Source of the DNA: Clostridia bacterium
GTDB lineage: Bacteria > Bacillota > Clostridia > Oscillospirales > Acutalibacteraceae
Length of the DNA stretch: 64,000 bases
NCBI GenBank assembly: GCA_017452785.1
Contig: JAFTLT010000003.1
Location: forward strand, 17,846-81,845
Direction of reading: 5' to 3'
Shown: piece after piece, positions 17,890 through 64,000 of the stretch
Layout: every line of letters starts with the position of its first letter
Position numbering within the stretch: position 1 is the stretch's first letter
The notes under the pieces: generated by a model
Seen by the model: the letters and a program-made list of their open reading frames with translations, nothing else
The model's database searches: none
Told to the model about the DNA's origin: nothing
Position numbers and translations under genes: made by a program

Positions 17890-17966
17890 GGCGGCTCCAC
17901 AGAAGCACAAAGTGCTTCGGGCGACCTGTGGTCGCTTGCCGAATAGAATTCGGCAGTGGAGCCGCC
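17890..17966 (+). repeat. Cloverleaf element, copy 1 (77 bp)
   Basis: Outer stem GGCGGCTCCAC (17890–17900) pairs with GTGGAGCCGCC (17956–17966). Inside are three perfect hairpins: GAAGCAC/GTGCTTC (17902–17918), GCGACC/GGTCGC (17921–17935) and TGCCGAAT/ATTCGGCA (17937–17955), each with a three-base loop. Nearly all bases are paired. It contains no open frame of interest and lacks tRNA consensus boxes. Confidence 0.9.
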
Positions 17967-18032
17967 CACCGCTGACTGATTTGGCGGGTAGGGAGTTTTG
18001 TTTATTTGCAAAACTGCAAACGGATTTGTTTC

Positions 18033-18141
18033 GGAGCTTTGCTCCCCACAACTTTTGCCCTCAGGCAAAAACTTCACTAACCGAAGGTGAGCTTCACTTG
18101 CCTTGGGCATGCTTCACTTCGACTTCAGCCGAAACTTCACT
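18033..18141 (+). repeat. Hairpin array with CTTCACT spacers
   Basis: Short hairpins GGAGC/GCTCC, TTTTGCC/GGCAAAA, ACC/GGT and TGCC/GGCA follow one another. The heptamer CTTCACT recurs at 18072, 18092, 18112 and 18135, about every 20 bp. The same idea with another heptamer appears at 22055–22140. Confidence 0.7.
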
Positions 18142-18195
18142 TTTTCCACTCTCAACCGAATACCAATAAATCGTTAATCAAAAAGGAGAAATATT

Positions 18196-20367
18196 ATGTC
18201 TAAAACACTCGTGCTTGCCGAAAAGCCCTCAGTTGCAAGAGATATTGCAAGAGTTCTCGGCTGCAAACAAAAAGGTGACGGATGTATAATCGGCCCCAAT
18301 TATATAGTTACATGGGCTCTCGGTCATCTTGTAACCCTTGCCGACCCTGATGCATATGACGACAGATATAAGGCATGGCGTCTTGAAGACCTACCCATGC
18401 TTCCTGACAAAATGAAGCTCGTTACAATCAAGCAGACCTCCAAGCAGTACCGCATAGTTTCTGCCCTTATGAAGCGTGAGGATGTGGATAAGTTAGTTAT
18501 TGCCACTGACGCAGGGCGTGAGGGTGAGCTAGTTGCAAGATGGATAATGATGAAGGCTCACTGCAAAAAGCCTGCCTACAGACTCTGGATTTCGTCACAG
18601 ACCGACAGGGCAATAAAAGAGGGCTTTCAGAATCTGAGGCCTGCTAAGGAATATGATAACCTTTATTATTCTGCTCAGGCAAGAGCCGAAGCTGACTGGC
18701 TTGTCGGTCTTAACACAACAAGAGCTCTCACCTGCAAATATAACGCTCAGTTATCAGCAGGCAGAGTGCAGACCCCTACCCTTGCACTGATTGTTAAACG
18801 AGAAGAAGAAATTCTCGCCTTTCAGCCTAAGGATTATTACAGCGTTCAGGCTGTTTTCAAGGGCTTTAATGCCACCTTCAGAGACAAGAAAAACAACACC
18901 CGCTTTTCAGATAAAGCATTTGCCGAAAAGATAGCCGAAGCTGCAAAGGGCAAAAAAGGCACCGTGGCTAAGGTGGAAAAAACTGCAAAGAAAACTCCCC
19001 CACCTGCCGCCTATGACCTGACAGAGCTTCAGCGTGACGCAAACAAAAAATACGGCTACAGCGCTAAACAGACCCTTTCGCTTATGCAGAGCCTTTATGA
19101 ATACCACAAGGTACTCACCTATCCACGAACTGACTCACGCTATATCACCGATGACATAGTTGCAACCATTCCCGAAAGACTCAGAGCTATGGCGGTGGGA
19201 CCCTATCAGTCTCAGGCTATGAAGTTCGCAAGAGGCAAAATCGAAACAAAATATATCGTCAACAACGCCAAGGTCAGCGACCACCACGCTATTATCCCCA
19301 CAGAGCAGTCACCTAATCTTTCCAAGCTCAGTTTTGAAGAAAGAAACGTCTACGACCTTGTTGTCAGACGCTTTATGGCGGTACTGAGTGAGCCTATGGA
19401 ATATGATGAAGTGAAGCTACAGATTGACATTGGCGAAAACAGCTTCTATGCCAAGGGCAAAACCGTCAAGAGTCAGGGATGGAAGGAGTTTTACGGCAAC
19501 CTTGACGATGAGGATGAAGAGGAAGCAGAAAACCGTTCGCAGGTTCTTCCCGAAATTCGGCAGGGTACACAGCTCGATGTGCTGAACACAAAAATCATCA
19601 GCGGCAAAACAAGACCTCCTGCAAGGTACACGGAGGCAACCCTACTCTCAGCCATGGAAAACCCGTCAGGTCAGATTGAGGATAAAAACCTCAAGAAGGT
19701 CATTGCCTTAACAAGCGGTCTCGGTACCCCGGCAACAAGAGCAGACATTATTGAAAAGCTCTTTGACAACTTTTCAATCGAGCGTGTGGGCAAGGAAATT
19801 CACCCCACAGCAAAGGGCAAGCAGCTAATTAAGATAGTGCCGCCTGACCTGAAATCAGCCGAGCTGACAGCAAAATGGGAGCAGCAGCTCCAGAACATAA
19901 GCAAGGGCACAGCAAGTATGAAAACCTTTATAGGCGAGATGAGAGATTACTCAACCTCACTCGTTTCAATGGTGATTGCAAGCAGTGCCCAGTACACTCA
20001 CGATAATATGACAAAAGAGAAATGCCCCGTCTGTGGAAAATATCTGCTTGATGTCAACGGCAAAAAAGGCAAAATGCTTATCTGTCAGGATAGAGAATGC
20101 GGCTACCGAAAGGGACTTACACAAGTGACAAATGCACGCTGCCCCGAATGCCACAAAAAGATGGAGCTTCGTGGTGAAGGCGACAAAAAGATGTTCACCT
20201 GCGTCTGCGGCTACAGAGAGCGCCTCAGTGACTTCAATAAGCGCAGAGAAGACAAAGGTGCCGGCAAAGCAGACGTAATGTCCTATATGAGAAAGCAGCA
20301 GGCACAGCAAAAGAAAGAAGCAAACGATAATCCCTTTGCAGATTTATTAAAGAATTGGAACAACTGA
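18196..20367 (+). CDS. topB: DNA topoisomerase III (type IA)
   Basis: 723 residues. The TOPRIM domain starts LVLAEKPSVARDIARVLG and includes ATDAGREGEL. The catalytic Tyr lies in LTYPRTDSRYIT (about residues 311–322). The C-terminus carries two four-cysteine zinc ribbons (CPVCGK...CQDREC and CPECHK...CVC). The enzyme relaxes and decatenates DNA by single-strand passage in the cytoplasm. GGAGAAATATT precedes the ATG. TopB homologues also occur on conjugative elements, but nothing else here is element-like and the flanks are the same chromosomal repeats as elsewhere, so this copy looks chromosomal. Confidence 0.95.
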   Translation: MSKTLVLAEKPSVARDIARVLGCKQKGDGCIIGPNYIVTWALGHLVTLADPDAYDDRYKAWRLEDLPMLPDKMKLVTIKQTSKQYRIVSALMKREDVDKLVIATDAGREGELVARWIMMKAHCKKPAYRLWISSQTDRAIKEGFQNLRPAKEYDNLYYSAQARAEADWLVGLNTTRALTCKYNAQLSAGRVQTPTLALIVKREEEILAFQPKDYYSVQAVFKGFNATFRDKKNNTRFSDKAFAEKIAEAAKGKKGTVAKVEKTAKKTPPPAAYDLTELQRDANKKYGYSAKQTLSLMQSLYEYHKVLTYPRTDSRYITDDIVATIPERLRAMAVGPYQSQAMKFARGKIETKYIVNNAKVSDHHAIIPTEQSPNLSKLSFEERNVYDLVVRRFMAVLSEPMEYDEVKLQIDIGENSFYAKGKTVKSQGWKEFYGNLDDEDEEEAENRSQVLPEIRQGTQLDVLNTKIISGKTRPPARYTEATLLSAMENPSGQIEDKNLKKVIALTSGLGTPATRADIIEKLFDNFSIERVGKEIHPTAKGKQLIKIVPPDLKSAELTAKWEQQLQNISKGTASMKTFIGEMRDYSTSLVSMVIASSAQYTHDNMTKEKCPVCGKYLLDVNGKKGKMLICQDRECGYRKGLTQVTNARCPECHKKMELRGEGDKKMFTCVCGYRERLSDFNKRREDKGAGKADVMSYMRKQQAQQKKEANDNPFADLLKNWNN

Positions 20368-20387
20368 AGAAGCGGAAAACTCCGCTT

Positions 20388-20690
20388 CTTCAGAGTGCAG
20401 AATGCAGAATTGTGGTCGCAGGTTTACTCTTGTCTGATATACAGTTTTCGTCTGCAGAGTCAGCTGGGCTGAGATACCTTCTGCCGTCGATTGTAACTGT
20501 CGACTGTAGTCTTGCACAAAAGGGAAGTTGGCGGCGGCTCCACAGAAGCACAAAGTGCTTCGGGCGACCTATGGTCGCTTGCCGAATAGAATTCGGCAGT
20601 GGAGCCGCCCACCGCTGACTGATTTGGCGGGCAGGGAGTTTGGTTTTTAACAAAACTTCCTCGCAATTCTGCACTCTGCATTCTGCATTC
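20388..20690 (+). repeat. Composite interspersed repeat, copy B (with cloverleaf)
   Basis: Closed by inverted heptamer runs: TGCAGAA-type at 20395–20420 and their complement at 20667–20690. The body has GTGGTCGCAGGTTTAC, CTGATATACAGTTTTCGTC, CTGCCGTCGATTGTAAC, the cloverleaf at 20533–20609, then CTGACTGATTTGGCGGG. It is closely similar to copy A across the whole body. It ends directly at the terminator at 20691–20715. Confidence 0.88.
20533..20609 (+). repeat. Cloverleaf element, copy 2 (77 bp)
   Basis: Same outer stem and same three internal stems as copy 1; the only change I see is in the loop of the second hairpin (TAT for TGT). The stem bases are unchanged. Confidence 0.9.
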
Positions 20691-20715
20691 AAAAAAGCCC
20701 TTCCGGGCTTTTTTT
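20691..20715 (+). terminator. Terminator downstream of topB
   Basis: AAAAAAGCCC TTCC GGGCTTTTTTT: a short GC stem with flanking A and T tracts, likely active in both directions. Confidence 0.8.
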
Positions 20716-20770
20716 AGCACCTTATATAAAATATTGTATAGGTTTTTATGTATTTTTTACTCATAAGCAC

Positions 20771-20799
20771 TTGAAAAAAATGCCATAATAATATAAAAT
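20771..20799 (+). promoter_or_regulatory. Sigma-A promoter of pgk
   Basis: -35 TTGAAA (20771–20776), 17-bp spacer, -10 TAAAAT (20794–20799), about 65 bp before the pgk start. The ribosome site is GAAAGGAAAG. Confidence 0.6.
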
Positions 20800-20863
20800 G
20801 GCAGATGGTGTATTTTTATACTTAGTTTAAAATTTAAAGCTATATAAGAAAGGAAAGACACAC

Positions 20864-22054
20864 ATGAACGTATTAAACAAGAAATCAGTTGAAGACATTG
20901 ACGTAAAAGGCAAAAAAGTCCTTATCCGTTGCGACTTCAACGTAAAGATGGAAGACGGCGTAATCACAAGCGACAAGAGAATCGTTGCTTCACTTCCCAC
21001 AATCAAGTATCTTCTTGATAACGGTGCAAAGGTTATCGCTTGCTCACATCTCGGCAGACCCAAGGGTGAATTCAAGCCCGAATTTTCACTTGCTCCCGTT
21101 GCAGTAAGACTCGGCGAGCTCCTCGGCATCGAAGTTAAGATGGCAAAGGACGTTGTTGGTGAAAGCGCACAGGCTCTGGCTGCAGACCTTAAGGAAGGCG
21201 AAGTTCTTCTTCTTGAAAACGTTCGTTTCCACAAAGAAGAAACAAAGAATGATCCCGAATTCTCAAGGGCTCTTGCTTCACTTGCAGAGATCTATGTAAA
21301 CGATGCTTTCGGTTCAGCTCACAGAGCTCACAGCTCAACAACAGGTGTTGCTGACTATCTTCCCGCAGTTGGTGGCTATCTTATCCGTAAGGAACTCGAA
21401 TATATCGGTGGCGCACTTGAAAATCCCAAGAGACCTCTCGTTGCTATTCTCGGCGGTGCAAAGGTATCAGATAAGATCGGTGTTATCACAAACCTTATGG
21501 AAAAGGTTGACACACTCATCGTTGGCGGCGGTATGGCTTACACATTCTTTGCTGCTCAGGGTCACACAGTAGGCACATCAATCTGCGAAGAAGATAAGAT
21601 TGAGCTTGCTAAGGAAATGATGGAAACAGCTAAAGCTAAGGGCGTTAACTTCCTTATCCCCATTGACAACAGAGTAGGTCTTGAATATAAAGAAGACACT
21701 GAATGCAAGATTGTTGATTCAGACGACATTCCCGACGGCTGGATGGGTCTTGACATCGGACCCAAGACAGAAGAGCTCTTTGCAAATGCTATCAAGGGCG
21801 CAGGCACAGTTATCTGGAACGGCCCCATGGGTGTTTCCGAATGGAAAAACTTCGCTTCAGGTACTATTGCAGTTGCTACAGCTATTGCAGAAAGCGGCGC
21901 AATTTCAATCGTTGGCGGCGGTGACTCAGCTGCAGCTGTTCAGAAGCTCGGCTTTGCTGACAAGATGAGCCATATCTCAACAGGCGGCGGCGCATCACTT
22001 GAATTCCTCGAAGGTAAGGACCTTCCCGGTGTTGTTGCTCTAAACGACAAATAA
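20864..22054 (+). CDS. pgk: Phosphoglycerate kinase
   Basis: 396 residues, normal length. N-terminal signature [15 protein letters not shown]; substrate-binding SHLGRPKGE and ENVRFHKEE; nucleotide-binding region [11 protein letters not shown] and the C-terminal GGGDSAAAV...[13 protein letters not shown]. Converts 1,3-bisphosphoglycerate and ADP to 3-phosphoglycerate and ATP in the cytosol. Heads the pgk–tpiA–gpmI set of lower glycolysis; gap is not in the window. Codon use is strongly biased, as expected for a highly expressed gene. Confidence 0.98.
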
Positions 22055-22140
22055 TGAAGCGTAAGCTTCAATTCATGGCGTAAGCCAATTCATGCATTTA
22101 TGCAATTCATGACCGCAGGTCAATTCATTGCACCTGCGGT
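22055..22140 (+). repeat. Hairpin array with AATTCAT spacers between pgk and tpiA
   Basis: Starting at the base after the pgk stop: TGAAGC-GTAA-GCTTCA, TGGC-GTAA-GCCA, TGCAT-TT-ATGCA and TGACC-GCA-GGTCA, separated by AATTCAT at 22070, 22087, 22104 and 22122 (period 17–18 bp). Stem sequences differ but each is self-complementary, and the spacer is constant. Its place suggests effects on mRNA 3' ends or differential expression. Confidence 0.85.
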
Positions 22141-22171
22141 ATCAAATTAAAAATAAAAGGAGCTACTTAAA

Positions 22172-22942
22172 ATGAACAAAGCAACCCGTAAAGCAGTTAT
22201 CGCAGGTAACTGGAAAATGAATATGACTCCCTCACAGGCTACAGCTCTCATTAATGAAATGAAACCCCTCGTTGCAGGTGCTGACTGTGAAGTTGTTCTC
22301 TGCGTACCTTTCGTAGACATCCCCGCAGCTCTTGAAGCAGCTAAGGGTTCAAACATCAAAATCGGTGCTGAAAATGTGCACTTCAAGCAGTCAGGCGCAT
22401 ACACAGGTGAAATTTCAGCTGATATGCTCAAGGAGCTTGGCGTTGAATATGTTGTTGTAGGTCACAGCGAAAGAAGACAGTACTTCGGTGAAACAGACCA
22501 GACTGTTAACCTTCGTTCGCTTGCAGCACTCGGCGCAGGTCTTAAGCCCATCATCTGCGTTGGTGAAACTCTTGAGCAGAGAGAGCTCGGCTACACAGAA
22601 ACTCTTCTTAAGTATCAGACAAAGATGGCTCTTACAAACGTAACAGCAGACCAGCTTAAGGATGTTGTTATCGCTTACGAACCCGTTTGGGCTATCGGCA
22701 CAGGCGTTACAGCAACAGCTGATCAGGCTGACGAAGGCAACGGATATTGCCGTGCAGCTATTGCAGAAGCATACGGTGCTGATGTTGCTGAAACAGTAAC
22801 AATTCAGTACGGCGGTTCAATGAACGCAAAGAACGCTGCTGAACTCGTTTCAAAGGTAAATGTTGACGGCGGTCTTATCGGTGGCGCATCGCTCAAGGCT
22901 GCAGACTTCTCAGTTATCGTTAAGGCAGCTTCAGAAGCTTAA
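22172..22942 (+). CDS. tpiA: Triosephosphate isomerase
   Basis: 256 residues. AGNWKMNMTPSQA start, catalytic His in VVGHSERRQYFGE, catalytic Glu in AYEPVWAIGTGVTAT, and the phosphate-binding QYGGSMNAKNA and GGLIGGASL loops. Interconverts dihydroxyacetone phosphate and glyceraldehyde-3-phosphate. It lies 117 nt after pgk across the hairpin array and is followed by its own terminator. AAAAGGAGC precedes the ATG. Confidence 0.98.
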   Translation: MNKATRKAVIAGNWKMNMTPSQATALINEMKPLVAGADCEVVLCVPFVDIPAALEAAKGSNIKIGAENVHFKQSGAYTGEISADMLKELGVEYVVVGHSERRQYFGETDQTVNLRSLAALGAGLKPIICVGETLEQRELGYTETLLKYQTKMALTNVTADQLKDVVIAYEPVWAIGTGVTATADQADEGNGYCRAAIAEAYGADVAETVTIQYGGSMNAKNAAELVSKVNVDGGLIGGASLKAADFSVIVKAASEA

Positions 22943-22943
22943 T

Positions 22944-22968
22944 AAAAAGGGCTCTTTGAGCCCTTTTT
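22944..22968 (+). terminator. Terminator after tpiA
   Basis: AAAAAGGGCTC TTT GAGCCCTTTTT: a perfect 11-bp stem ending in T5, directly after the stop codon. Confidence 0.9.
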
Positions 22969-22969
22969 A

Positions 22970-23236
22970 TCAATTAGTAATTAGTAATTAGCAATTAGCA
23001 ATTGTGGTCGCAGATTGACTTTTATCAATATTGCGGTCTTTACCCGCAGACTCAGTCGGGTTGAGATACCCGCTATCGTCGATTATAGACCTCTCCGCCC
23101 TTCGGGCACCTCGTCTTTCAGGAGAGGTGAGTTACCTTTGCGGGATGAAACTTTATCCTTTTTGCAAACCGAAACGGATATAATCGGAGCTTTGCTCCCC
23201 ACAATTGCTAATTGCTAATTGCTAATTGATAATTAT
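22970..23236 (+). repeat. Composite interspersed repeat, copy C (no cloverleaf)
   Basis: Long inverted ends of TTAGCAA/TTAGTAA heptamers (22970–23003, complement at 23200–23234). Left body GTGGTCGCAGATTGAC and GTCGGGTTGAGATACC match the family; the middle contains the hairpin CACCTCTCCTGAAAG-like region (ACCTCTCC...GGAGAGGT, 23087–23129) instead of the cloverleaf. It fills the gap between tpiA and gpmI. Confidence 0.85.
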
Positions 23237-23275
23237 TACATCCCCAACTTAATTTTTTGAAAGGAACTACAATTT

Positions 23276-24808
23276 ATGAAAAAGCCCGTATTATTATGCA
23301 TCATGGACGGTTTCGGCAAGAACCCCTCAGATTACGGTAATGCTATTGTAGCAGCCGAGACTCCCAACCTTGATAAAATTATGAAAGAAAATCCCATGAC
23401 CTTTATAGGCGCATCAGGTATGGATGTAGGTCTGCCTGACGGTCAGATGGGTAACAGCGAAGTTGGTCACACCAATATCGGTGCAGGCCGTGTTGTTTAT
23501 CAGGAGCTCACAAGAATCACAAAGTCAATCAAGGACGGTGACTTCTTCCAGAACGAAGCTCTCGTAGGCGCTGTTCAGAACTGCCTTGACAAGGGCACAG
23601 CTCTTCACCTTATGGGTCTTATGTCAGACGGCGGCGTTCACTCACACGACACTCATATGCTTGCCATTGTGAAGCTGGCTAAGGAAATGGGGCTTGAGAA
23701 GGTTTACGTTCACTGCTTCCTTGACGGCAGAGATGTACCCCCTGCATCAGGTGCTGACTATGTTGAAAAGACCTGCAAGGCTCTTGAAGCAATAGGCGTA
23801 GGCAAGGTTGCCACAGTTATGGGCAGATACTACGCAATGGACAGAGACAACCGTTGGGAAAGAGTCAGCAAGGCTTATGCAGCTATGGTTTACGGCGAAG
23901 GCAATAAGGCTGAGTGCCCTGTTGCTGCAATCAGAAAGTCATATGAAACTCTCGACAGCGAAGGCAAGTACCTGACAGACGAATTCGTTATCCCCACAGT
24001 TTGCCTTGAGGGTGCAACAGTTAAAGCAAATGACAGCGTTGTTTTCTTCAACTTCCGCCCTGACAGAGCAAGAGAAATCACAAGAACCTTTGTTGATGAG
24101 TCATTCACAGGCTTTGAGAGAAAGAACGGCTTCTTCCCTCTCTATTACGTCTGCATGACACAGTACGACGCAACTATGCCTAACGTGCACGTTGCATTCA
24201 AGCCTCAGACCCTTGAAAACACCTTCGGTGAGTACCTTGCCAAAATGGGCAAGACTCAGCTGAGAATTGCAGAGACCGAGAAGTACGCTCATGTAACCTT
24301 CTTCTTTAACGGTGGTGTTGAAAAGCAGTACGACGGCGAAGACAGAATTCTTGTTGCTTCACCCAAGGTTGCAACCTATGACCTTCAGCCCGAAATGAGT
24401 GCTTATGAAGTAACCGACAAGGTAGTTGACGCTATCAAGTCAGGCAAGTACGATGCTATTATTCTCAACTTCGCTAACTGCGATATGGTTGGTCACACAG
24501 GCATTTTTGATGCTGCTAAGGCTGCCGTTGAGGCTGTTGACAAGTCAGTTGGCAAGGTTTATGATGCTGTTATGGAAATGCAGGGCGTTATGCTTATCAC
24601 TGCTGACCACGGCAACGCTGACAAGATGTATGAGGAAGACGGCTCACCCTTCACAGCTCACACCACTTTCCCTGTACCCTTTGTAGTTTGCGGCTATGAC
24701 TGCACACTTCGTGAGGGTGGCAAGCTTTGCGATATTGCCCCCACAATGCTTAAGATTATGGGCCTCGAACAGCCGGCAGAGATGGACGGAGAGAGCATTG
24801 CACTGTGA
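23276..24808 (+). CDS. gpmI: Cofactor-independent phosphoglycerate mutase
   Basis: 510 residues, usual length. Metal-binding CIMDGFGKNP, phospho-Ser motif GQMGNSEVGHTNIGAGR (Ser around residue 62), and the alkaline-phosphatase-fold metal site ITADHGNADKM near the C-terminus. Interconverts 3- and 2-phosphoglycerate using two Mn ions. Third glycolytic gene of the block; separated from tpiA by a repeat copy, so probably transcribed separately. GAAAGGAACT precedes the ATG. Confidence 0.98.
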   Translation: MKKPVLLCIMDGFGKNPSDYGNAIVAAETPNLDKIMKENPMTFIGASGMDVGLPDGQMGNSEVGHTNIGAGRVVYQELTRITKSIKDGDFFQNEALVGAVQNCLDKGTALHLMGLMSDGGVHSHDTHMLAIVKLAKEMGLEKVYVHCFLDGRDVPPASGADYVEKTCKALEAIGVGKVATVMGRYYAMDRDNRWERVSKAYAAMVYGEGNKAECPVAAIRKSYETLDSEGKYLTDEFVIPTVCLEGATVKANDSVVFFNFRPDRAREITRTFVDESFTGFERKNGFFPLYYVCMTQYDATMPNVHVAFKPQTLENTFGEYLAKMGKTQLRIAETEKYAHVTFFFNGGVEKQYDGEDRILVASPKVATYDLQPEMSAYEVTDKVVDAIKSGKYDAIILNFANCDMVGHTGIFDAAKAAVEAVDKSVGKVYDAVMEMQGVMLITADHGNADKMYEEDGSPFTAHTTFPVPFVVCGYDCTLREGGKLCDIAPTMLKIMGLEQPAEMDGESIAL

Positions 24809-24945
24809 GTGCAGAGTGCAGAACGCAGAGTGCAGAATGGCGGGAAAGTTTAGTCAAAGGATGAAACGAGATACAGCCAAACAGCAACGCGTTTTTGATT
24901 CTTTTTGCGCGGCAGCAAAAAGAATGCCTGCCCGGCGAGGGCAAT
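24806..24945 (+). repeat. Repeat remnant, copy J
   Basis: Starts in the last codon of gpmI with TGCAGAG/TGCAGAA heptamers, then an unrelated-looking stretch containing GATTCTTTTTGCGCGGCAGC with a CTTTTTGC/GCAAAAAG inverted repeat (24901–24922), typical of small palindromic filler in this genome. Only the heptamer end clearly belongs to the family. Confidence 0.6.
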
Positions 24946-24957
24946 AAAAGAAGATAA

Positions 24958-24985
24958 GACCTGCAAGTTGCAGGTCTTTATTTTT
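24958..24985 (+). terminator. Terminator after gpmI
   Basis: GACCTGCAA G TTGCAGGTC followed by TTTATTTTT. Perfect 9-bp stem. Confidence 0.85.
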
Positions 24986-25037
24986 GATACATGATATGAT
25001 ATAATGAAATTAACAAATAAAAAAAGAGGTGAAAGTT

Positions 25038-31073: not shown

Positions 31074-31108
31074 GCCGTTTATTCAGCTTGTGCAAACTTG
31101 TAGCCGGC

Positions 31109-31186
31109 GGCGGCTCCACTTAAATCGCCATAGCGATTTAACGGCAAATTTTGCCGAGCCGAACATTGTTCGGCTGTGGAGCCGCC
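31109..31186 (+). repeat. Cloverleaf element, copy 3 (78 bp)
   Basis: Same outer stem (31109–31119 with 31176–31186). All three internal stems differ from copies 1 and 2 but remain perfectly paired: TTAAATCGC/GCGATTTAA (31120–31141), CGGCAA/TTGCCG (31142–31156) and AGCCGAAC/GTTCGGCT (31157–31175). This is direct evidence that pairing, not sequence, is kept. Confidence 0.9.
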
Positions 31187-31372
31187 TGCCACCGCATACT
31201 TCCCTCTTTGCAAAAGAAAGTAAAAAACAGGCAGGCAACCACCCATACGGTAGAAACCTGCCTCATATTAAGATTGATAAAACTCCAAGCTTCGCAAAAC
31301 CGCCTCTGCGGGTAACAACTTACGTTAGCAGAAAGTAAACCTGCGACCGCAATTCTAATTACTAATTGCTAA

Positions 31373-56074: not shown

Positions 56075-56091
56075 AAATGCAATTTTGCATT

Positions 56092-56713: not shown

Positions 56714-56742
56714 TTGACTTTTTATGCTTATGGATGTAATAT
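56714..56742 (+). promoter_or_regulatory. Sigma-A promoter of the deo operon
   Basis: -35 TTGACT (56714–56719), 17-bp spacer, -10 TAATAT (56737–56742). A second TATAAT lies ten bases further down. No operator is obvious. Confidence 0.55.
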
Positions 56743-56772
56743 TAAGATATAATATTTAGTGAGGTATCAGTT

Positions 56773-57438
56773 ATGGATATTAAAGAAATTTTATCAAAGG
56801 TTGACCATACTCTCCTCTCGCAGAGTGCAACATGGAATGAGATTAAAGCTATATGTGATGACGGCATAAAATACGGCTGTGCAAGCGTTTGCATTCCCCC
56901 GTCATATGTAAAAAAGGCAAAGGATTATGTGGGAAACAGCCTTAAAATATGCACAGTTATCGGCTTTCCCAACGGATATAGCACCACTGCAGTTAAATGT
57001 TTTGAGGCTGCCGAAGCAGTAAAAGAGGGTGCCGATGAAATCGATATGGTTATCAATATCGGTATGCTCAAAGATAAAAGATATGAGGATGTGCTCGGTG
57101 AAATCAAAGCAATAAAAGACAGCTGCAGCGGCAAACTGCTTAAGGTTATTATTGAAACCTGCCTTCTCAGTGAAGAAGAGAAAATTAAAATGTGCGAAAT
57201 CGTGTCAAAAAGCGGTGCCGACTATATCAAAACCTCAACAGGCTTTTCCACGGGCGGTGCAACAAGAGAGGATATTGCTCTTTTCAAAGCCAATGTAGAG
57301 CCTCACCTTAATATCAAGGCTGCAGGTGGCATTGCAAGCATAAAGGATGCAGAGGATATGCTGTCTCTGGGAGCAAACAGACTTGGCACCAGCAGAATAG
57401 TTAAAATAGTCAAAAACGAAGAAGGCTTCGGCTATTAA
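56773..57438 (+). CDS. deoC: Deoxyribose-phosphate aldolase
   Basis: 221 residues. Signature KVDHTLLSQSATWNEI, GFPNGYSTTAVKCFEA, EIDMVINIGML, the Schiff-base Lys in LLKVIIETCLL and DYIKTSTGFSTGGAT, and GAN-RLGTSR phosphate site. Splits deoxyribose-5-phosphate into acetaldehyde and glyceraldehyde-3-phosphate, feeding glycolysis. First gene of a five-gene nucleoside-salvage operon with very short gaps (11, 4, 1 and 4 bases). GAGGTATCAGTT precedes ATG. Confidence 0.97.
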   Translation: MDIKEILSKVDHTLLSQSATWNEIKAICDDGIKYGCASVCIPPSYVKKAKDYVGNSLKICTVIGFPNGYSTTAVKCFEAAEAVKEGADEIDMVINIGMLKDKRYEDVLGEIKAIKDSCSGKLLKVIIETCLLSEEEKIKMCEIVSKSGADYIKTSTGFSTGGATREDIALFKANVEPHLNIKAAGGIASIKDAEDMLSLGANRLGTSRIVKIVKNEEGFGY

Positions 57439-57449
57439 GGAGGATAATT

Positions 57450-58175
57450 ATGTCAGTTTCAACACCTCACATCTGCCTGCCTGAGGGCGTCAGTTTTGCA
57501 AAAACCGTGCTTATGCCCGGTGACCCTCTCAGAGCAAAAATGATTGCAGAAACATTTCTTGAAAATCCCACCCTCATCAATAACATAAGAGGTATTCAGG
57601 GATATAACGGCACCTATAAGGGTCACAAGGTCAGTGTTATGGCAAGCGGTATGGGTATGCCGTCTATAGGAATATATTCCTATGAGCTTTATAATTTCTT
57701 CGGCGTTGAAAATATTATCCGTGTGGGCTCTGCAGGCGGTCTTAGTGATGAAGTAAAGCTTCGTGACATTGTTGCAGGCATAGGCGCCAACACTAACTCT
57801 AATTTCGGTGCTCAATACGGTGTTACGGGCACTATTGCTCCCACCTGCTCTTATGCCCTGCTCACTGCCGCTGTGGACTCTGCCGAAGACTTGGGTCTTT
57901 CTCTCAAGGTTGGCAATCTCTTTTCAAGTGACACATTTTATGATGCTGACCCTGATTGCCACAGAAAGTGGAAGGATGTGGGCTCACTCGCTGTTGAAAT
58001 GGAAGCGGCGGCACTTTATCTCACAGCTATGAAAGCAGGCAAAAACGCTCTTGCAATCTGCACTATATCCGATATACCTGCCAAAGGTGAAGGCTGCAGT
58101 GCCGAGGAGAGACAGAACACCTTTACGGATATGATGAAAATTGCCCTTGAGACGGCAATAAGAATGGATAAGTGA
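57450..58175 (+). CDS. deoD: Purine-nucleoside phosphorylase (DeoD, hexameric)
   Basis: 241 residues, NP-I family. MPGDPLRAKMIAE phosphate-binding start, SGMGMPSIGIYSYEL, RVGSAGGL, EMEAAAL substrate site and the catalytic Asp in TISDIPAKGE. Converts purine (deoxy)ribonucleosides to free base and sugar-1-phosphate, which DeoB then uses. GGAGGATAATT precedes the ATG. Confidence 0.96.
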   Translation: MSVSTPHICLPEGVSFAKTVLMPGDPLRAKMIAETFLENPTLINNIRGIQGYNGTYKGHKVSVMASGMGMPSIGIYSYELYNFFGVENIIRVGSAGGLSDEVKLRDIVAGIGANTNSNFGAQYGVTGTIAPTCSYALLTAAVDSAEDLGLSLKVGNLFSSDTFYDADPDCHRKWKDVGSLAVEMEAAALYLTAMKAGKNALAICTISDIPAKGEGCSAEERQNTFTDMMKIALETAIRMDK

Positions 58176-58179
58176 TTTA

Positions 58180-59349
58180 ATGATTAAACGAGTCTTTTTA
58201 ATTGTGCTCGACTCCTTCGGCATAGGTGAAATGCCTGACAGCAGTCTTTACGGTGATAAGGGAAGTAACACACTTCACTCATGCTTTTTGCAGGATAGCT
58301 TCCGTGTACCTAATATGGCTAAGCTCGGTCTATATAATATTGACGGAGTTTCCTTTGGCGAAAAGCAGAAAAAGCCCCTTGGTGCATATGGCAGAATGAC
58401 CGAAAAAAGCAAAGGCAAAGACACCACAACCGGTCATTGGGAAATTGCAGGGCTTATATCCGAAAAGGCATTTCCAACTTATCCTGATGGCTTTCCCGAC
58501 GAAATAATATGTGAATTTGAAAGAAAAACGTGCAGAAAAGTCCTTTGCAATAGGCCTTATTCAGGCACTAAGGTTATCGAGGATTACGGCAAAGAGCACA
58601 TTGAAAGCGGAGCTCTTATAGTTTACACGTCAGCTGACAGTGTCTTTCAGATAGCTGCCCACGAAAATGTTGTTCCTATAGAAACACTCTATGAATACTG
58701 CCGGATCGCAAGAGAAATTCTCACCGGTGACCACGCTGTGGGCAGAGTTATTGCAAGACCCTTTGACGGTGAATATCCCCATTTCAGGCGTACACCGAGA
58801 CGCCACGATTTTTCACTTGTGCCCCCTCATAACACTCTGCTTGATGAAATGAATACTGATGGGTTTAAGGTTATTCCCATAGGCAAAATATACGATATTT
58901 TTGCAGGAAAGAGCCTTGAAAAATCCTTTCCCACCGAAAGCAACAAGCAGGGTATGGAGCTGACAATGAAGGCTCTTTATGAGGATTTCACCGGTCTGTG
59001 CTTCACAAACCTTGTTGACTTTGATATGCTTTACGGTCACAGAAACGATGCGGCAGGGTACGCTAAGGCACTGAGTGAATTTGATTTATGGCTCGGTGAC
59101 TTTATAAACGAAATGAAAGACAGTGACCTGCTTATGATAACTGCCGACCACGGCTGTGACCCACTCACAGAAAGCACCGACCATTCAAGAGAATACACTC
59201 CCCTGCTTATTTTTGGCAGCAAGGTTAAAAATATAAATCTCGGCACAAGAGGCAGCTTTTCGGATATAGGAAAAACAATTGCTGACATTTTTGCCATAAA
59301 CTCAAAAATCAGCGGCAAGAGCTTCATAAATGAAATATTGGAGAAATAA
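58180..59349 (+). CDS. deoB: Phosphopentomutase
   Basis: 389 residues of the alkaline-phosphatase superfamily. Metal-binding IVLDSFGIGEMPD, the phospho-Thr region GKDTTTGHWEIAG, and the second metal set in ITADHGCDP and TDHSREYTPLL. Converts (deoxy)ribose-1-phosphate to the 5-phosphate, linking DeoD and Pdp to DeoC. Starts four bases after deoD, on the ribosome site inside the end of that gene. Confidence 0.97.
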   Translation: MIKRVFLIVLDSFGIGEMPDSSLYGDKGSNTLHSCFLQDSFRVPNMAKLGLYNIDGVSFGEKQKKPLGAYGRMTEKSKGKDTTTGHWEIAGLISEKAFPTYPDGFPDEIICEFERKTCRKVLCNRPYSGTKVIEDYGKEHIESGALIVYTSADSVFQIAAHENVVPIETLYEYCRIAREILTGDHAVGRVIARPFDGEYPHFRRTPRRHDFSLVPPHNTLLDEMNTDGFKVIPIGKIYDIFAGKSLEKSFPTESNKQGMELTMKALYEDFTGLCFTNLVDFDMLYGHRNDAAGYAKALSEFDLWLGDFINEMKDSDLLMITADHGCDPLTESTDHSREYTPLLIFGSKVKNINLGTRGSFSDIGKTIADIFAINSKISGKSFINEILEK

Positions 59350-59350
59350 A

Positions 59351-59752
59351 ATGACAGAACTCGAACTTATAAAAAAAGCAAAAGAGGCAGCAAAAATGGC
59401 ATATGTGCCCTATTCACATTTTACTGTAGGTGCGGCACTTCTTTGCAAGAACGGCAAAATTTACACCGGCTGCAACATTGAAAACGCTGCCTACTCCCCC
59501 ACAAACTGCGCAGAGAGAACTGCATTTTTCAAAGCAATCAGCGAGGGCGAAAAAAATTTTGAAGCTATTGCAATTGTTGGAGGAAAAAGCTGCAATTTCA
59601 CCGATTACTGCACCCCTTGCGGAGTTTGCAGGCAGGTTATGGCTGAATTCTGCAGCAAGGATTTCAGAGTTATTCTTGGCAAAAACGGTGAGGATTTCAG
59701 GGTTATAACCCTTCGCAATCTGCTTCCCGACAGTTTCACCTTAAAGGAGTAA
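59351..59752 (+). CDS. cdd: Cytidine deaminase
   Basis: 133 residues from the ATG at 59351, one base after the deoB stop; GGAGAAATAAA is the ribosome site. Zinc site: CAERTAFFKAI (Cys and catalytic Glu) and PCGVCRQ. Substrate motif CNIENAAYSPT. Converts cytidine and deoxycytidine to the uridine forms, which Pdp then phosphorolyses. Confidence 0.97.
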   Translation: MTELELIKKAKEAAKMAYVPYSHFTVGAALLCKNGKIYTGCNIENAAYSPTNCAERTAFFKAISEGEKNFEAIAIVGGKSCNFTDYCTPCGVCRQVMAEFCSKDFRVILGKNGEDFRVITLRNLLPDSFTLKE

Positions 59753-59756
59753 AAAA

Positions 59757-61055
59757 ATGAGAATTTACGATATAATTGCAAAAAAGCGTGACGGCTATGA
59801 GCTGACAGATGAAGAAATAGGCTTTTTTGTGCGTGAACTTACCAATGAAAAAATAATGGATTATCAGGCAACTGCACTTCTGATGGCAATATATATCAGA
59901 GGTATGTCTGACAGAGAAATGATAACTCTCACAAAAGAAATGGCAGTGTCAGGTGACACCCTTGACCTAAGTGAGCTTGGCATCACTGCCGACAAACATT
60001 CAACAGGCGGTGTGGGCGATAAAACCACTCTCGTAGTTGCACCTTTAATCGCATCCCTTGGCATAAATGTTGCTAAAATGTCAGGCAGAGGTCTTGGTCA
60101 CACGGGTGGAACAGTTGACAAGTTAGAGTCAATCAGAGGCTTCAAAGTCAGCCTTAGCCCCGATGATTTCATCTCTCAGGTGAAAAAAATCGGCATTGCC
60201 GTTGTTGGGCAGACAGGCAGGCTCGCCCCTGCGGATAAGATTATTTACTCCCTTCGTGATGCCACTGCCACCGTCGGCAGTGTACCGCTTATAGCATCAA
60301 GCATTATGTCAAAAAAACTGGCAGCAGGCAGCAAGACTATAGTTCTCGATGTAAAATACGGCAGTGGTGCCTTTATGAAAACCACTGAGGATGCCGAGGC
60401 TCTTTCAAAAAAAATGGTGGATATCGGAAAAGCTGCAGGCAGGCGCATGGCAGCTGTTATAAGTGATATGGACACACCCCTTGGCACAAACATAGGCAAT
60501 GCTCTTGAAGTAAAAGAAGCGGTTGCCGTGCTCAGAGGTGAAGGCAGCGAAGATTTAAAAGAGGTCTCTCTCACACTTGCAGCTAACATTGTGGCTCTGT
60601 CTCTCGGTGATGATATAGCCGCTGCAAGAAAGAAGGTAGAAGCTGCCCTTGAAAGCGGCAAGGCATATGAAAAGTTCAAGGAGTTTATAACTACTCAGGG
60701 CGGTGACATTTCACAGATTGAAAACACTGACAAGCTGCCAAAAGCAAAAACGGTTTATCAGCTTTTATCACCTGAAAGTGGATATATCAGCAAAATGCAG
60801 GCTGAAGATATCGGCTCAGCAAGTGTTATCCTCGGTGCAGGCAGACTAACAAAAGAAGACACCATAGACTATTCCGCAGGCATTATCCTTAATAAAAAAA
60901 CAGGCGACAAGGTGCAACGGGGCGACGTTTTAGCTGAGCTTCACACAAATAACAGCGGCAAAATTAAGGATGCTGAAAAGCTGTTTTTGTCTGCTTTATC
61001 CTTCAGCAGTGAAAAGCCTGAAAGAAATCCACTCATTTATAAAACAATTCTTTAA
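59757..61055 (+). CDS. pdp: Pyrimidine-nucleoside phosphorylase
   Basis: 432 residues. Phosphorylase signature STGGVGDKTTLVVAPLIASL and SGRGLGHTGGTVDKLESIRG; phosphate-site Lys and Ser in LDVKYGSGAFMKT. Splits uridine, deoxyuridine and thymidine to base and sugar-1-phosphate. Last gene of the operon; AAAGGAG with close spacing precedes the ATG. With the four upstream genes it allows growth on DNA and nucleosides. Confidence 0.97.
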   Translation: MRIYDIIAKKRDGYELTDEEIGFFVRELTNEKIMDYQATALLMAIYIRGMSDREMITLTKEMAVSGDTLDLSELGITADKHSTGGVGDKTTLVVAPLIASLGINVAKMSGRGLGHTGGTVDKLESIRGFKVSLSPDDFISQVKKIGIAVVGQTGRLAPADKIIYSLRDATATVGSVPLIASSIMSKKLAAGSKTIVLDVKYGSGAFMKTTEDAEALSKKMVDIGKAAGRRMAAVISDMDTPLGTNIGNALEVKEAVAVLRGEGSEDLKEVSLTLAANIVALSLGDDIAAARKKVEAALESGKAYEKFKEFITTQGGDISQIENTDKLPKAKTVYQLLSPESGYISKMQAEDIGSASVILGAGRLTKEDTIDYSAGIILNKKTGDKVQRGDVLAELHTNNSGKIKDAEKLFLSALSFSSEKPERNPLIYKTIL

Positions 61056-61251
61056 CAGATAAACCAGTTTTTATCACCGTGATATTATTGCAACTTGGAT
61101 ATACTTATTTGTTGTTTTAAAACCAAAACACAATAAACTGATTATTGACTATAAAAAAGAAATTATGATATAATCCCACACGATGCTTCATGCTACGACT
61201 TAAAAAAGCCATAACATGGAGCTATTATTTTATGTTTTCGGAGGATATCAG

Positions 61252-61824
61252 ATGAACCAAAATGAAAAAACGGGCTTTAGACTTTTACATAAGCCCCCAA
61301 AAGGCAAGGTACCTGCTCTTTGTCTTGTGTTTTTATGGATTGCGCTGTGGAATGTAATTTTTCAGGCGCTTCACGACGTAATGCCCCACGAAGGTCTCAG
61401 AATTATAAACTGGGCATTCTTCATCAGCGTTGCTGTTTTCTTTTTGCAGGAAGAACTCTCCTACAAAGACCGCTTCTGGTACACCCTTTGCGGCGGTGCA
61501 GTAGGTCTTCTTTTGGCAGCACTTGTCAGTCTCGGTGCAAAGTCACTGATGGGTATTGGCCTCAGCCACTTCGTTGCAGTTTGCATTCCCCTTGTTATCA
61601 TTATCGGTGTGCTTATTCTCACAAGACCTTTCATTCCCATGTTTTTTAACGATGTCGGCTTTGTTTATCTTATCTGCTCATTTATTGAGAGTGACAAGAT
61701 GATAGAGAATCTTCCCAGCCATCTGCTTTCACTTCTGCTTGGCTCAATTATTCTCAACCTCGGTGCAAGCGGAATTATTATGCTTTACAAAAAAGCTATG
61801 GCTAAAAAAGCGGCAAAAAAATAA
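61252..61824 (+). CDS. Polytopic membrane protein of unknown function
   Basis: 190 residues from the ATG at 61252 with GGAGGATATCAG upstream; a twelve-codon upstream extension lies in that leader. Five hydrophobic segments (about 23–42, 52–68, 76–100, 107–129 and 150–175) with a basic tail (KKAMAKKAAKK). Conserved-looking polar positions in the first two loops (QALHDVMPHEGLRI). It follows the deo operon by 196 bp, which contains AT-rich sequence with a TATAAT-like -10 near 61167. Family not recognised; a small transport subunit is possible. Confidence 0.75.
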   Translation: MNQNEKTGFRLLHKPPKGKVPALCLVFLWIALWNVIFQALHDVMPHEGLRIINWAFFISVAVFFLQEELSYKDRFWYTLCGGAVGLLLAALVSLGAKSLMGIGLSHFVAVCIPLVIIIGVLILTRPFIPMFFNDVGFVYLICSFIESDKMIENLPSHLLSLLLGSIILNLGASGIIMLYKKAMAKKAAKK

Positions 61825-61840
61825 GATGCACATAGCAAAA

Positions 61841-61866
61841 CTCCCCGATTGATGTCGGGGAGTAAA
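61841..61866. terminator. Bidirectional terminator between convergent genes
   Basis: CTCCCCGA TTGATG TCGGGGAG, flanked by AAAA on the left and TAAATTTTATTT on the right; serves both the membrane protein and the anti-sigma-like gene. Confidence 0.9.
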
Positions 61867-61868
61867 TT

Positions 61869-63092
61869 TTATTTGACTATGATTTTATAAACCGCAGTGC
61901 CTCTGTGCTGAGTGAGAGGCTGGAAGGAATCTGAAATTTCTTCATAAAGCACATAACAGCTGTTTACTTTGTCAAGTCTGGTTGTGTCAAGTTTTACTTT
62001 AAGGTTTGTCTGATTTTCTTCGCTTGTTACAACATCAATATAGCTCTTGCCATCAAAAACAGACATAAGCTCATTATTTACATAAAGGCTGAGTCTGTAA
62101 GTACCGCCGTCGCCGAGAAGAGAAATTGTAAGCTCTTCGTCTTCGCCTGACTTTGTATACATTCTTGTGTGGAAGCCGTCATCCACAAAGCACTTATCAA
62201 TGTCACTATACATAAAGGCATAGAACTCTGCTTCCATTTCAGTATAGCTTTTAATCACTCTATTATCAGCAGGAATAACTGTTTTTCCGCTGAAATCATC
62301 TGCAATGAGTGTCTCATAGGGAGCATCAACATTCATAATAACCTTATTATAGCCGATATCGATTACATCGTGATGATGCGACACCATTTCATCCGCATCA
62401 CCCTTTTCTTTAAGCTCAGCATCGGGATTATACATAAGATACGTTGTCATCTGAAGCTCATCACCTGCTTTGCCCACATTGGGTGTGAATGAAATATAGA
62501 TTTTCTTTTCTGTCAAAGGCTTCACATCAAACTTATAAAGCATTGTGTTTTCGGTTGTTTCGCCGTCACATTTTGCAGTAAACTCCTGTCTGATGCCGTC
62601 GAGAGTAATAAGAATTGCCTGCTGCTTAAACATTGGTTCTTCCTCACCTGCAATGGTAAAGACAGCCTTTATTTCACCGCCGTCATAGCTTAAAACATCA
62701 AGCTCACGTTCCTCATATGTTTCGGGAACAACGGTGAAGGTTCCGTCCTTATTATCCCATATCGCCTCGGGTATTTTAATGTCAGCGTTAGTTGTTTCTG
62801 CACCCTCAACATCATAATTAATTGTTCCTGTTCCAAGAAGAACTGTGGCGGCGCCTGCTGAAAGCGTGAGGCAAATCATCAGCACCGCTGCAATAAGTGC
62901 AGCAAACTTCACTCTGGGTCTTTTTCTGACATAAGCTGTCTTAGCGTTTTCGCTTACAAGAAGTGTGTCCATTTCCTTTTGGAATTTGCCGGAATAGGGT
63001 CTTATAATCTGCTTTTCCTGAGGAAGTGAATTCAATTCAATTTTTGCCGCTTCCTCCAATGCTTTTTTAAGCGTGGTATTCTCTTTTTTCAT
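61869..63092 (-). CDS. Anti-sigma-like membrane protein with an extracytoplasmic domain
   Basis: 407 residues: a cytoplasmic N-terminus (1–60), one membrane helix (about 62–85, AALIAAVLMICLTLSAGAAT) and a large outside domain (about 90–407) with beta-rich segments resembling the DUF4179-type sensors of Clostridial ECF anti-sigma proteins. It overlaps the sigma gene by 26 bases, so the two are translationally coupled, which is the classic sigma/anti-sigma arrangement. It should bind the sigma factor inside and sense an envelope signal outside. No zinc-binding ZAS motif is present, so the cytoplasmic contact differs from RsrA-type proteins. Confidence 0.75.
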   Translation of the reverse strand: MKKENTTLKKALEEAAKIELNSLPQEKQIIRPYSGKFQKEMDTLLVSENAKTAYVRKRPRVKFAALIAAVLMICLTLSAGAATVLLGTGTINYDVEGAETTNADIKIPEAIWDNKDGTFTVVPETYEERELDVLSYDGGEIKAVFTIAGEEEPMFKQQAILITLDGIRQEFTAKCDGETTENTMLYKFDVKPLTEKKIYISFTPNVGKAGDELQMTTYLMYNPDAELKEKGDADEMVSHHHDVIDIGYNKVIMNVDAPYETLIADDFSGKTVIPADNRVIKSYTEMEAEFYAFMYSDIDKCFVDDGFHTRMYTKSGEDEELTISLLGDGGTYRLSLYVNNELMSVFDGKSYIDVVTSEENQTNLKVKLDTTRLDKVNSCYVLYEEISDSFQPLTQHRGTAVYKIIVK

Positions 63093-63609
63093 AAGTGTCT
63101 TCCTCCTTTTTAATAAGGTTAATCAGTTTTTGTCTGCCTCTGAAAAGCTGCTGTTTGACAGTGTTTTCTCTTGTGCTCGTCAAAGCGGCAATTTCAGAAA
63201 CTGAAAGGTCGTTAAGATAATAGAAAGTCAGCACATCACGGTATCTGTCTTCGAGCCTGAGAATTGCCGACACTATTTCTTTATAGCTTTCTCTGCGGCA
63301 GATTTCGTCAAGCAGACTCTCATCTCTTTCAGCCACTGCTTCATCAAGAGGCGTTTCTTTTTCAGGCAGTCCCATTCTCACAATATTGAGTGCTCTGCTT
63401 CTTGCTGCTTTTATCATGTACGCTGCCGTGCTGACTGAGTCAACATCTTTTATTTTATCGAGATGCTTTGAAACAGCTATAAAGGCATCGTGCACTGCAT
63501 CCTCTGCTCTTTGTGGATCACGAAGGACCTTGCAGGCAGTTATATACATTCTGTTTTTATATTTGTCATAAAGCTGTCTGAGTTTTTCTCTGTCATAATC
63601 GCTGTGCAT
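63067..63609 (-). CDS. ECF-type RNA polymerase sigma factor
   Basis: 180 residues from the ATG at 63609, with GGAGGTGAT upstream; a 21-codon upstream extension overlaps this site. Region 2: LYDKYKNRMYITACKVLRDP and QRAEDAVHDAFIAVSKHL (EDAVHDAF is the core-binding motif). Region 4: LEDRYRDVLTFYYLNDLSVSEIAA with TSTRENTVKQQLFRGRQKL, the helix-turn-helix. Two-domain ECF sigma acting with the overlapping anti-sigma-like gene. Target promoters are unknown. No matching promoter in front can be called with confidence. Confidence 0.93.
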   Translation of the reverse strand: MHSDYDREKLRQLYDKYKNRMYITACKVLRDPQRAEDAVHDAFIAVSKHLDKIKDVDSVSTAAYMIKAARSRALNIVRMGLPEKETPLDEAVAERDESLLDEICRRESYKEIVSAILRLEDRYRDVLTFYYLNDLSVSEIAALTSTRENTVKQQLFRGRQKLINLIKKEEDTYEKREYHA

Positions 63610-63699
63610 ATCTATTATCACCTCCGTCACTGTTTTAAAAGGCCTTTCACTAATATAGACACAGTTTAGCATATTAAGGTTACGGGATTATGAAAAAAG

Positions 63700-64000
63700 T
63701 CTGATAAAATTTATAGTTGGGCTTACTGGCGATTAACGGAAGTCTCACAAAAAAGGCAGGCGGCTCCACTGCCGAATTTCATTCGGCAAGCGACCGCAGG
63801 TCGCCCAAAATCGCAAAGCGATTTTTGTGGAGCCGCCGGGCGCACCGATATATGAAACTCAATCACCAACCACGCCCGAAAGGACGTGGTTTGGATAATA
63901 ACCCTATAAGGGTAAACAATACCAGCGGTGCCTGAAGGCACATCTAAGCGACACCAACTGCAGGTGTTGCTTTTACTTTTCTATGAGATGAGCAAATGGA
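63700..64000 (+). repeat. Repeat region at the right edge (with cloverleaf copy 4)
   Basis: About 390 bp upstream of the sigma gene with no protein gene. Contains the cloverleaf (63759–63837), then the inverted pairs CCACG.../...CGTGG (63869–63891) and ACCCTATAAGGGT (63901–63913), and GCGGTGCCTGAAGGCAC hairpins (63925–63941). Unlike copies A, B and F there is no recognisable heptamer end inside the window. Confidence 0.7.
63759..63837 (+). repeat. Cloverleaf element, copy 4 (79 bp, opposite orientation)
   Basis: Same outer stem (63759–63769 with 63827–63837). Internal stems, in order: TGCCGAAT/ATTCGGCA, GCGACC/GGTCGC and AAAATCGC/GCGATTTT. Reversed, it matches copies 1 and 2 in its last two hairpins and differs in the first, so it lies in inverted orientation and one hairpin has been changed while staying paired. 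Confidence 0.9.

Follow-up and report, generated by a model that had tools for sequence, protein, structure and literature searches.

A dispersed three-hairpin DNA cloverleaf in some gut Clostridia that seems to be inherited as a shape rather than as a sequence

The window analysed here, a 64,000-nucleotide (nt) stretch of contig JAFTLT010000003.1 from a Clostridia bacterium (assembly GCA_017452785.1; positions below are those of the window), holds four copies of a short element in which an outer stem encloses three hairpins, and raises the question of what kind of element keeps such a fold while its letters change. The answer favoured here, with moderate confidence, is that these cloverleafs are a short, non-coding and non-autonomous DNA repeat, similar to miniature inverted-repeat transposable elements (MITEs) or to REPINs (hairpin-forming doublets, in inverted order, of repetitive extragenic palindromes, REPs), which is selected for its fold in four species of one Clostridia genus. 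These are the window's own genome (G000, 90% complete), its close relatives G008 (72% complete) and G025 (metagenome-assembled genome, MAG, JAGBSR01, Clostridia bacterium RGIG9411, from yak cecum), and a more distant species, G034 (98% complete). The conserved feature is the form, made of end motifs, outer stem and three hairpins, and the sequence of the stems is nearly free. The four copies in the window and their parts are:

17890..17966, + strand: cloverleaf copy 1 (77 nt), from sequence, fold and structural scan, with a covariance model R1 match of 75.7 bits; outer stem 17890-17900/17956-17966, hairpin A 17902-17918, B 17920-17936, C 17937-17955
20533..20609, + strand: cloverleaf copy 2 (77 nt), from sequence, fold, covariance model and structural scan; outer stem 20533-20543/20599-20609, hairpin A 20545-20561, B 20563-20579, C 20580-20598
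31109..31186, + strand: cloverleaf copy 3 (78 nt), from sequence, fold, covariance model and structural scan; outer stem 31109-31119/31176-31186, hairpin A 31120-31141, B 31142-31156, C 31157-31175
63759..63837, - strand (opposite orientation): cloverleaf copy 4 (79 nt), from sequence, fold, covariance model and structural scan; on the + strand, outer stem 63759-63769/63827-63837, hairpin C 63770-63788, B 63790-63804, A 63807-63825

The coordinates of the four copies had been proposed in an initial annotation and are confirmed, as are the 11-bp outer stem, GGCGGCTCCAC/GTGGAGCCGCC, which closes three hairpins and is exact in all four, the near identity of copies 1 and 2 (one base in 77 differs, located in a loop) and the inversion of copy 4 relative to copies 1-3. 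Copy 3 had been described as carrying three different hairpins, but its A and C belong, as variants, to the AAATCGC and GCCGAA types found in other copies, and the middle hairpin differs most. A sequence-blind structural scanner, which looks for an outer stem (8 bp or longer) that closes a set number of adjacent hairpins (three in the scan of the window) with, by default, up to 3 unpaired bases between neighbouring hairpins, recovered precisely these four copies from the 64 kb and none from three shuffled windows. The predicted fold amounts to -46.5 to -54.4 kcal/mol in eight G000 copies, both strands considered. As already supposed, there is no tRNA consensus, with 0 tRNA genes given by ARAGORN in the window, and neither the window nor 10 loci taken from G000, G008, G025 and G034 gave an Rfam match at the gathering threshold.

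The number of hairpins appears to be fixed at three. Scanned blindly to sequence, 1.03 Mb of carrier DNA contains 70 three-hairpin folds (lowest score 54), 0 four-hairpin folds and four two-hairpin ones, the latter weak (scores 24-28), mostly AT-rich and chance-like, whereas 3.09 Mb of block-shuffled sequence contains 0, 0 and 1, respectively. Many of the G025 stretches and some of those from G000 were picked through copies found with a three-hairpin model, a choice that favours three; as stretches were picked for holding a copy, the densities of copies are not unbiased. The stretches of G034, which were not picked for a cloverleaf, gave, at default settings, 5 folds with three hairpins, 2 weak ones with two and 0 with four, and the low-scoring, chance-like folds under relaxed settings were 9 with two hairpins (up to 34.5), 3 more with three (up to 41) and 0 with four. 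Outer stems span about 8-13 bp, hairpins are perfect or nearly so, and 92 of 94 copies leave 0-3 unpaired bases in total between hairpins, where the scanner permits 3 per gap. Loops of 3 nt predominate (37/48 hairpins in G000, 138/195 in G025, 9/15 in G008 and 24/24 in G034). The scanner retains 16 of the 21 G000 copies described below. An outlier in G025 (L211:9238-9331) carries a hairpin of 11 bp and an entirely different outer stem, GCGGTGGCGGTG.

Conservation of the fold through compensatory change, as proposed from the four window copies, is well supported by covariation far above shuffles in two alignments. In a structure-blind MAFFT alignment of the 21 G000 copies, 89.7% of the cells pair, against 82.1 +/- 0.7% after shuffling, and the covariation score is 0.242 against 0.120 +/- 0.010, with 0 of 500 shuffles as high and a score of at most 0.087 when the pairing partners are slid. 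On four of five measures the structure exceeds all 500 shuffles and all slid versions, and the fifth, which counts further pair types, is weaker (23 of 500 shuffles as high). A larger alignment (A3), fitted to the covariance model and with 12 reverse duplicates among its 90 rows, shows both-sided changes in 28 of 33 pairs and a score of 0.626 against 0.150 +/- 0.007. The 2,534 pairs of 78 distinct copies comprise 2,434 Watson-Crick, 26 G-U and 74 other pairs, so that G-U makes up 1.0% of the pairs and about a quarter of the exceptions, where one sixth would be expected were all mismatches alike. An RNA under selection for its fold usually tolerates more G-U pairs. Given their rarity, the pairing is most simply read as acting at the DNA level, and what the evidence suggests is a hairpin or cruciform of DNA. 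The same reading draws on the reverse-complemented loops, the random orientation relative to genes and the position between terminators and promoters described below.

Loops of hairpins A and C (3 nt) occur as reverse complements of each other inside identical stems: GAA 4 times and TTC 5 times in the CGAAC stem, GAA 7 and TTC 5 in CGAAT, and AAA 7 and TTT 7 in ATCGC. When the alignment columns were permuted 5,000 times, 0 permutations were as extreme for A and C, and 166 for B (67 of the 78 copies yielded loops). At an orthologous site (L063 in G000, L232 in G025), the element as a whole has opposite orientations in the two species. PMC8604942 and PMC8794818 give the combination of spacer inversion and arm homogenisation as a signature of template switching between short inverted repeats, and the arms of the cloverleaf are probably kept perfect in part by this process. 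A second orthologous site, L064 in G000 and L071 in G008, also indicates constraint, since the two copies differ at 2 of 68 stem bases and 5 of 11 unpaired ones, against 38 of 148 positions in the nearest 150-bp flank (p = 1.9e-5 for stem versus nearest flank); the stems thus diverge about nine times less, and over 500 nt of the same flank, partly coding, 74 of 496 positions differ. We infer that this slowdown exceeds what arm copying alone should give. The alternative posed in the initial annotation, either selection or a mechanism that copies hairpins, therefore finds some support on each side, the former from the stem constraint at this one site and the latter from loop flipping.

The family extends well beyond the window. 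Exact outer arms mark 8 copies in G000, and allowing one mismatch per arm adds more, some of which have arms ending in CAT/ATG rather than CAC/GTG. A covariance-model search, which had been suggested at the outset, yielded further copies beyond the four: the model built from 21 G000 copies finds 21 places in G000 (42 rows, each place on both strands) and, over 60 relatives, its positives are G000, G008 (six places) and G025 (69 rows, some of them one place counted on both strands), all of the same genus. G025 holds at least 65 copies, and 72 matches to GGCTCCN{50,80}GGAGCC against 5 for a control pattern. Many copies of G025 and G008 have different outer stems and hairpins, with few mismatches. 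The model failed to detect G034, where the sequence-blind scan then found copies: 394 kb from 14 other genomes of the genus contained one cloverleaf, in G034 and with unrelated letters, and a further 279 kb of this genome (299 kb in total) added four, all different in sequence. At least 9 copies are now known in G034 (8 at default scanner settings and 9 with relaxed ones), with the same form and letters unrelated to those of the other carriers. The blind scan found no cloverleaf in 256 kb more, drawn from 18 additional genomes of the genus, nor in the topB and Y1_Tnp regions (173 kb) of G008, G025 and further members. By present evidence, carriers are 4 of the 35 genomes of the genus, the other 31 having been scanned by structure over about 630 kb in total (about 4.5-40 kb each).

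A second covariance model with strict filters, run over 398 genomes of the family, was positive in G000 only among the 21 genomes listed, which include seven of its own genus. The exact outer-stem pattern was positive in 1 of 99 genomes, although G008, G025 and G034 were in the set; in wider bacteria (genome_contigs) the outer-stem pattern matched at least 80 loci, and the clean three-hairpin folds among the matches listed are those of JAGBSR01. Two of the wider bacterial loci, L157 and L158, have three hairpins, are 71% paired and pass a loose cut, and they look like chance palindromes. Three contigs of a Rhabdochlamydiaceae MAG, DAHXNQ01 (L105, L115 and L122), contain an 82-nt palindrome with the same GGCGGCTCC arms and two hairpins, possibly an unrelated family. 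A viral origin was discarded: the outer-stem pattern hit 2 viral contigs, both with chance folds, a second outer-stem pattern hit none, and the end-motif pattern hit 70 viral stretches (646 kb), 0 of them with a two-, three- or four-hairpin fold. Plasmid and phage records gave no match to one 141-base query each. Literature searches returned no description of such an element in titles and the beginnings of abstracts, a weak negative given their incomplete coverage.

The limits of the element are suggested by its flanks, which are alike among G034 copies where the stems are not, with GTTTGTGCAGGAGG at one end and its complement at the opposite end. This pair of end motifs alone, searched in the 35 genomes of the genus, matches 3 places, all in G034, and a control pattern matches 0; each place contains a three-hairpin cloverleaf, one of them already known and used to define the motif and two new. 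Single ends with up to one mismatch occur at 25 sites of G034, 9 of which adjoin a cloverleaf, including two further new copies. The consensus end motif, GTTTGYGSNRRAGG, lies inverted on each side, often just inside a T-rich stretch, and matches of at least 10/13 within 40 nt of the outer stem are present on 12/42 sides in G000, 43/127 in G025, 3/10 in G008 and 13/18 in G034, against 1, 2, 0 and 1, respectively, in a far control segment. In the window, copy 3 has two candidates:

31086..31099, + strand: candidate left terminal motif of copy 3, a weak match (9/13 to the consensus)
31202..31215, - strand: candidate right terminal motif of copy 3, inverted, a weak match (9/13)

With respect to genes, 3 of 91 copies share more than 30 bp with an open reading frame (ORF) of 600 nt or longer and 11 are found at contig edges; with these set aside and overlapping ORFs under 600 nt ignored, copies are closer to the 3′ ends of genes (median 69 nt, 80 sides) than to 5′ ends (140.5 nt, 74 sides). 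With a cut-off of 80 amino acids, 21 of the 91 overlap an ORF, mostly short and likely spurious. Between gene and copy, a terminator-like hairpin followed by a T-run is present on 14 of 63 sides facing a 3′ end and on 3 of 59 facing a 5′ end (G025 and G008 only), and promoter-like sites occupy 31 of 56 gaps between a copy and its downstream gene, against 12 of 56 on the other strand. Once the 21 copies overlapping an ORF of at least 80 amino acids and 6 at contig edges were dropped, 42 could be scored for A-B-C order against tandem genes, 22 in the same and 20 in the opposite direction (17/16 in G025, 5/3 in G000 and 0/1 in G008). Altogether, these tallies indicate that copies tend to sit between transcription units, in either orientation. 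Inward T-runs were considered as a part of the element and rejected, since hairpin plus T-run occurs mainly on the sides facing 3′ ends; T-runs lacking a hairpin are frequent on both types of side (34 facing 3′ ends and 27 facing 5′ ends), and some T-richness remains unexplained.

Comparison with relatives reveals presence and absence at two spacers of the window:

17737..18179, no strand: intergenic stretch of 443 bp that holds copy 1 and other repeats, from comparison with relatives
20368..20710, no strand: stretch of 343 bp with copy 2, bounded by the topB and pgk matches; its counterpart in G025 measures 54 bp

The first one lies between an M16 peptidase gene and topB, where G008 has 9 bp and where the matched parts of both genes abut or overlap in G025, G011, G014 and G033. 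At another spacer, L332 of G000 has a terminator-like hairpin alone and L218 of G025 such a hairpin plus a cloverleaf with end motifs. As the window stretches also hold other repeats, the exact borders are not settled, and most G000-G025 alignments at empty sites are too diverged for exact ends. Among these other repeats, positions 20391-20412 and 20664-20685 are the 22-nt inverted ends, made of TGCAGAA heptamers, of a separate repeat that encloses copy 2; the topB-pgk spacer of G008 carries another element with similar ends (TGCAAAA repeats and GTGGTCGC), and short matches to ends of the TGCAGAA/TGCAAAA type occur in several genomes of the genus. The cloverleaf as cargo of a larger MITE with TGCARAA-type ends was rejected, such ends or GTGGTCGC standing beside 1-3 of the 21 G000 copies. 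AATTAGC heptamer repeats and, after them, AATTGTGGTCGC occupy 17737-17780; matches recur in further spacers of G000, and this is probably one more family of small repeats. A cloverleaf is found upstream of pgk in both G000 (20533-20609) and G034 (L313:16383-16463), with unrelated sequences; the spacer upstream of pgk is short in G025, and the sharing between G034 and G000 may be chance or an old shared site.

In the reading favoured here, a protein would recognise the folded DNA, either as a single-strand hairpin or as a cruciform, when the element spreads or acts. Template switching between the arms during replication would be the main mutational route that keeps them complementary and flips the loops, and selection would discard most copies lacking three good hairpins. 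A bolder version, in which shape is the heritable identity of the element and a three-hairpin DNA cloverleaf is spread by a structure-specific protein that barely reads sequence, so that stem letters drift while the fold and the end motifs persist, can be put forward only tentatively.

Several observations weigh against the non-autonomous repeat selected for its fold. Movement of the cloverleaf itself was not observed, and among 402 ORFs near copies no recurring transposase-like family was seen by eye in the 25 largest clusters, with no family search run. In G034, 16 of the 25 single-end sites adjoin no cloverleaf, and most flanks outside this genome match the end motif poorly; besides, the motif was defined after viewing G034 and one G025 copy, so that the far control weighs more than the absolute counts. 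Similarity from copy to copy stops within 10 bp of the cloverleaf in 656 of 792 pairs on the left and 719 of 792 on the right, rather than at the end motif. The 38 copies with both ends at 9/13 or better show no clear target-site duplication; exact duplications of 2, 3 and 4 nt occur in 1, 3 and 1 copies (3.85, 1.58 and 0.42 expected) and those of 5-9 nt in none; as the ends are approximate, a short one could escape notice. Decayed forms exist in G034, namely a partial one (L396) and one with a single hairpin (L411), and the latter, with end motif and outer stem near 1480-1600, would be useful for studies of decay. The stem-constraint test comprises one orthologous pair with one alignable flank. 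Finally, at L008/L243 the element occupies the same place in two species with an entirely different hairpin B, the middle one; this site lies upstream of a gene resembling pyrE by eye, and its orthology, like that of L064/L071, relies on one flank.

Among the alternatives, a host-useful chromosomal DNA structure (a nucleoid, gyrase or supercoiling site, similar to bacterial interspersed mosaic elements, BIMEs), kept by selection on the host, would agree with the stem constraint at L064/L071, with the places shared across species (L063/L232, L008/L243 and L064/L071, the last two by one flank) and with the location in spacers between transcription units. It is nonetheless unlikely, as copy number varies strongly among close species (6 places, 21 and at least 65), none of the searches made detected a copy in the remaining 31 genomes of the genus, and relatives lack the element at some sites. 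Template switching could also act alone, homogenising arms and inverting spacers in the absence of any selection for shape, and the signatures described in PMC8604942 and PMC8794818 agree with the inversion of loops and of a whole element and with intermediates being nearly absent. Such a product of mutation is improbable, since it leaves unexplained the fixed number of three hairpins (70 folds against 4 weak two-hairpin and 0 four-hairpin ones), the same form with unrelated letters in G034 and the ninefold lower divergence of stems than of the nearest flank at one site.

At the RNA level, transcripts of the spacers could carry a structured regulator, processing or stability element, as the very stable predicted fold, the strong covariation and the proximity to 3′ ends of genes (69 nt, against 140.5 from 5′ ends) would suggest. 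This option, raised in the initial annotation as an RNA processing signal, is not supported and we consider it very improbable: G-U pairs are 26 of 2,534, the orientation of the scored copies is random (17/16 in G025, 5/3 in G000), terminators (14/63 against 3/59) and promoter-like sites (31/56 against 12/56) suggest that the copies tend to lie between transcription units, and Rfam has no match. The least probable proposal, likewise very improbable, is a REP/REPIN family moved by a RAYT (REP-associated tyrosine transposase), an IS200/IS605-like HUH transposase that recognises a folded single strand. The repeat is indeed a short, lineage-specific palindromic element of intergenic regions that lacks a clear target-site duplication, and it resembles the REPINs of PMC3116915, characterised there as miniature, extragenic, hairpin-forming elements linked to RAYTs. 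However, the link to a RAYT-like nuclease, also suggested at first, is not supported: Y1_Tnp (PF01797) has 0 matches in G000 (90% complete), G008 (72%) and G034 (98%) and two partial ones in G025, while it is present in 20 of the 31 non-carrier genomes, and within 8 nt outside the outer stem the REP tags GTAG and CGTC occur on 5 and 1 of 172 sides, respectively.

The non-autonomous repeat proposed here can be compared with several known systems. According to PMC3733652, a REP element is a palindrome of 20-40 bp that has a GTAG or CGTC tag, unpaired, at one of its ends. The cloverleaf resembles the REP/REPIN and RAYT systems in being short, intergenic, palindromic, present in many copies and patchy among species, with hairpins likely recognised as DNA, but it nests three hairpins in an outer stem, its stem sequence is free between copies and species, the tags are nearly absent and the RAYT domain was not found in three of the four carriers. 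As with bacterial MITEs, it is small and non-coding, varies in presence between species and has inverted end motifs, candidates for terminal repeats, enriched in the four species (strongly in G034, 13/18, and weakly in G000, 12/42); in contrast to them, it shows no clear target-site duplication or autonomous partner found near copies by eye, and its inner part is conserved as a shape. Since the REP/REPIN tests of tag and RAYT failed, as did that of the MITE duplication within the approximate ends, the element is filed under none of them. BIMEs, as described in PMC2817692, are intergenic too and made of several palindromes. The cloverleaf differs from them as a closed unit, with its three hairpins inside an outer stem. 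The attC sites of integrons offer an analogy, as a folded DNA strand recognised mainly by its shape while the sequence varies; they form one long imperfect hairpin with core GTTRRRY/RYYYAAC boxes and extrahelical bases, and belong to gene cassettes and an integrase, whereas the cloverleaf has three hairpins, no cassettes and no integrase link shown. A last likeness is with the hairpins maintained by template switching (PMC8794818 and PMC8604942), which share the double changes that keep arms complementary and the inversion of loops; this is a mutational process rather than a family of elements, and leaves the number of hairpins unfixed.

In our judgement, the cloverleaf behaves as a selfish, non-autonomous repeat or as a retained DNA structure, with a fold that matters. 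Mobile and palindromic repeats of bacteria are catalogued by sequence, and a family conserved mainly in its shape escapes such catalogues. The cloverleaf offers a natural test of whether perfect hairpins are maintained by selection or by template switching, and of whether repeats in bacteria without RAYTs are driven by proteins that recognise a DNA fold alone. In this repeat of some gut Clostridia, it seems to be the shape, rather than the sequence, that is inherited.

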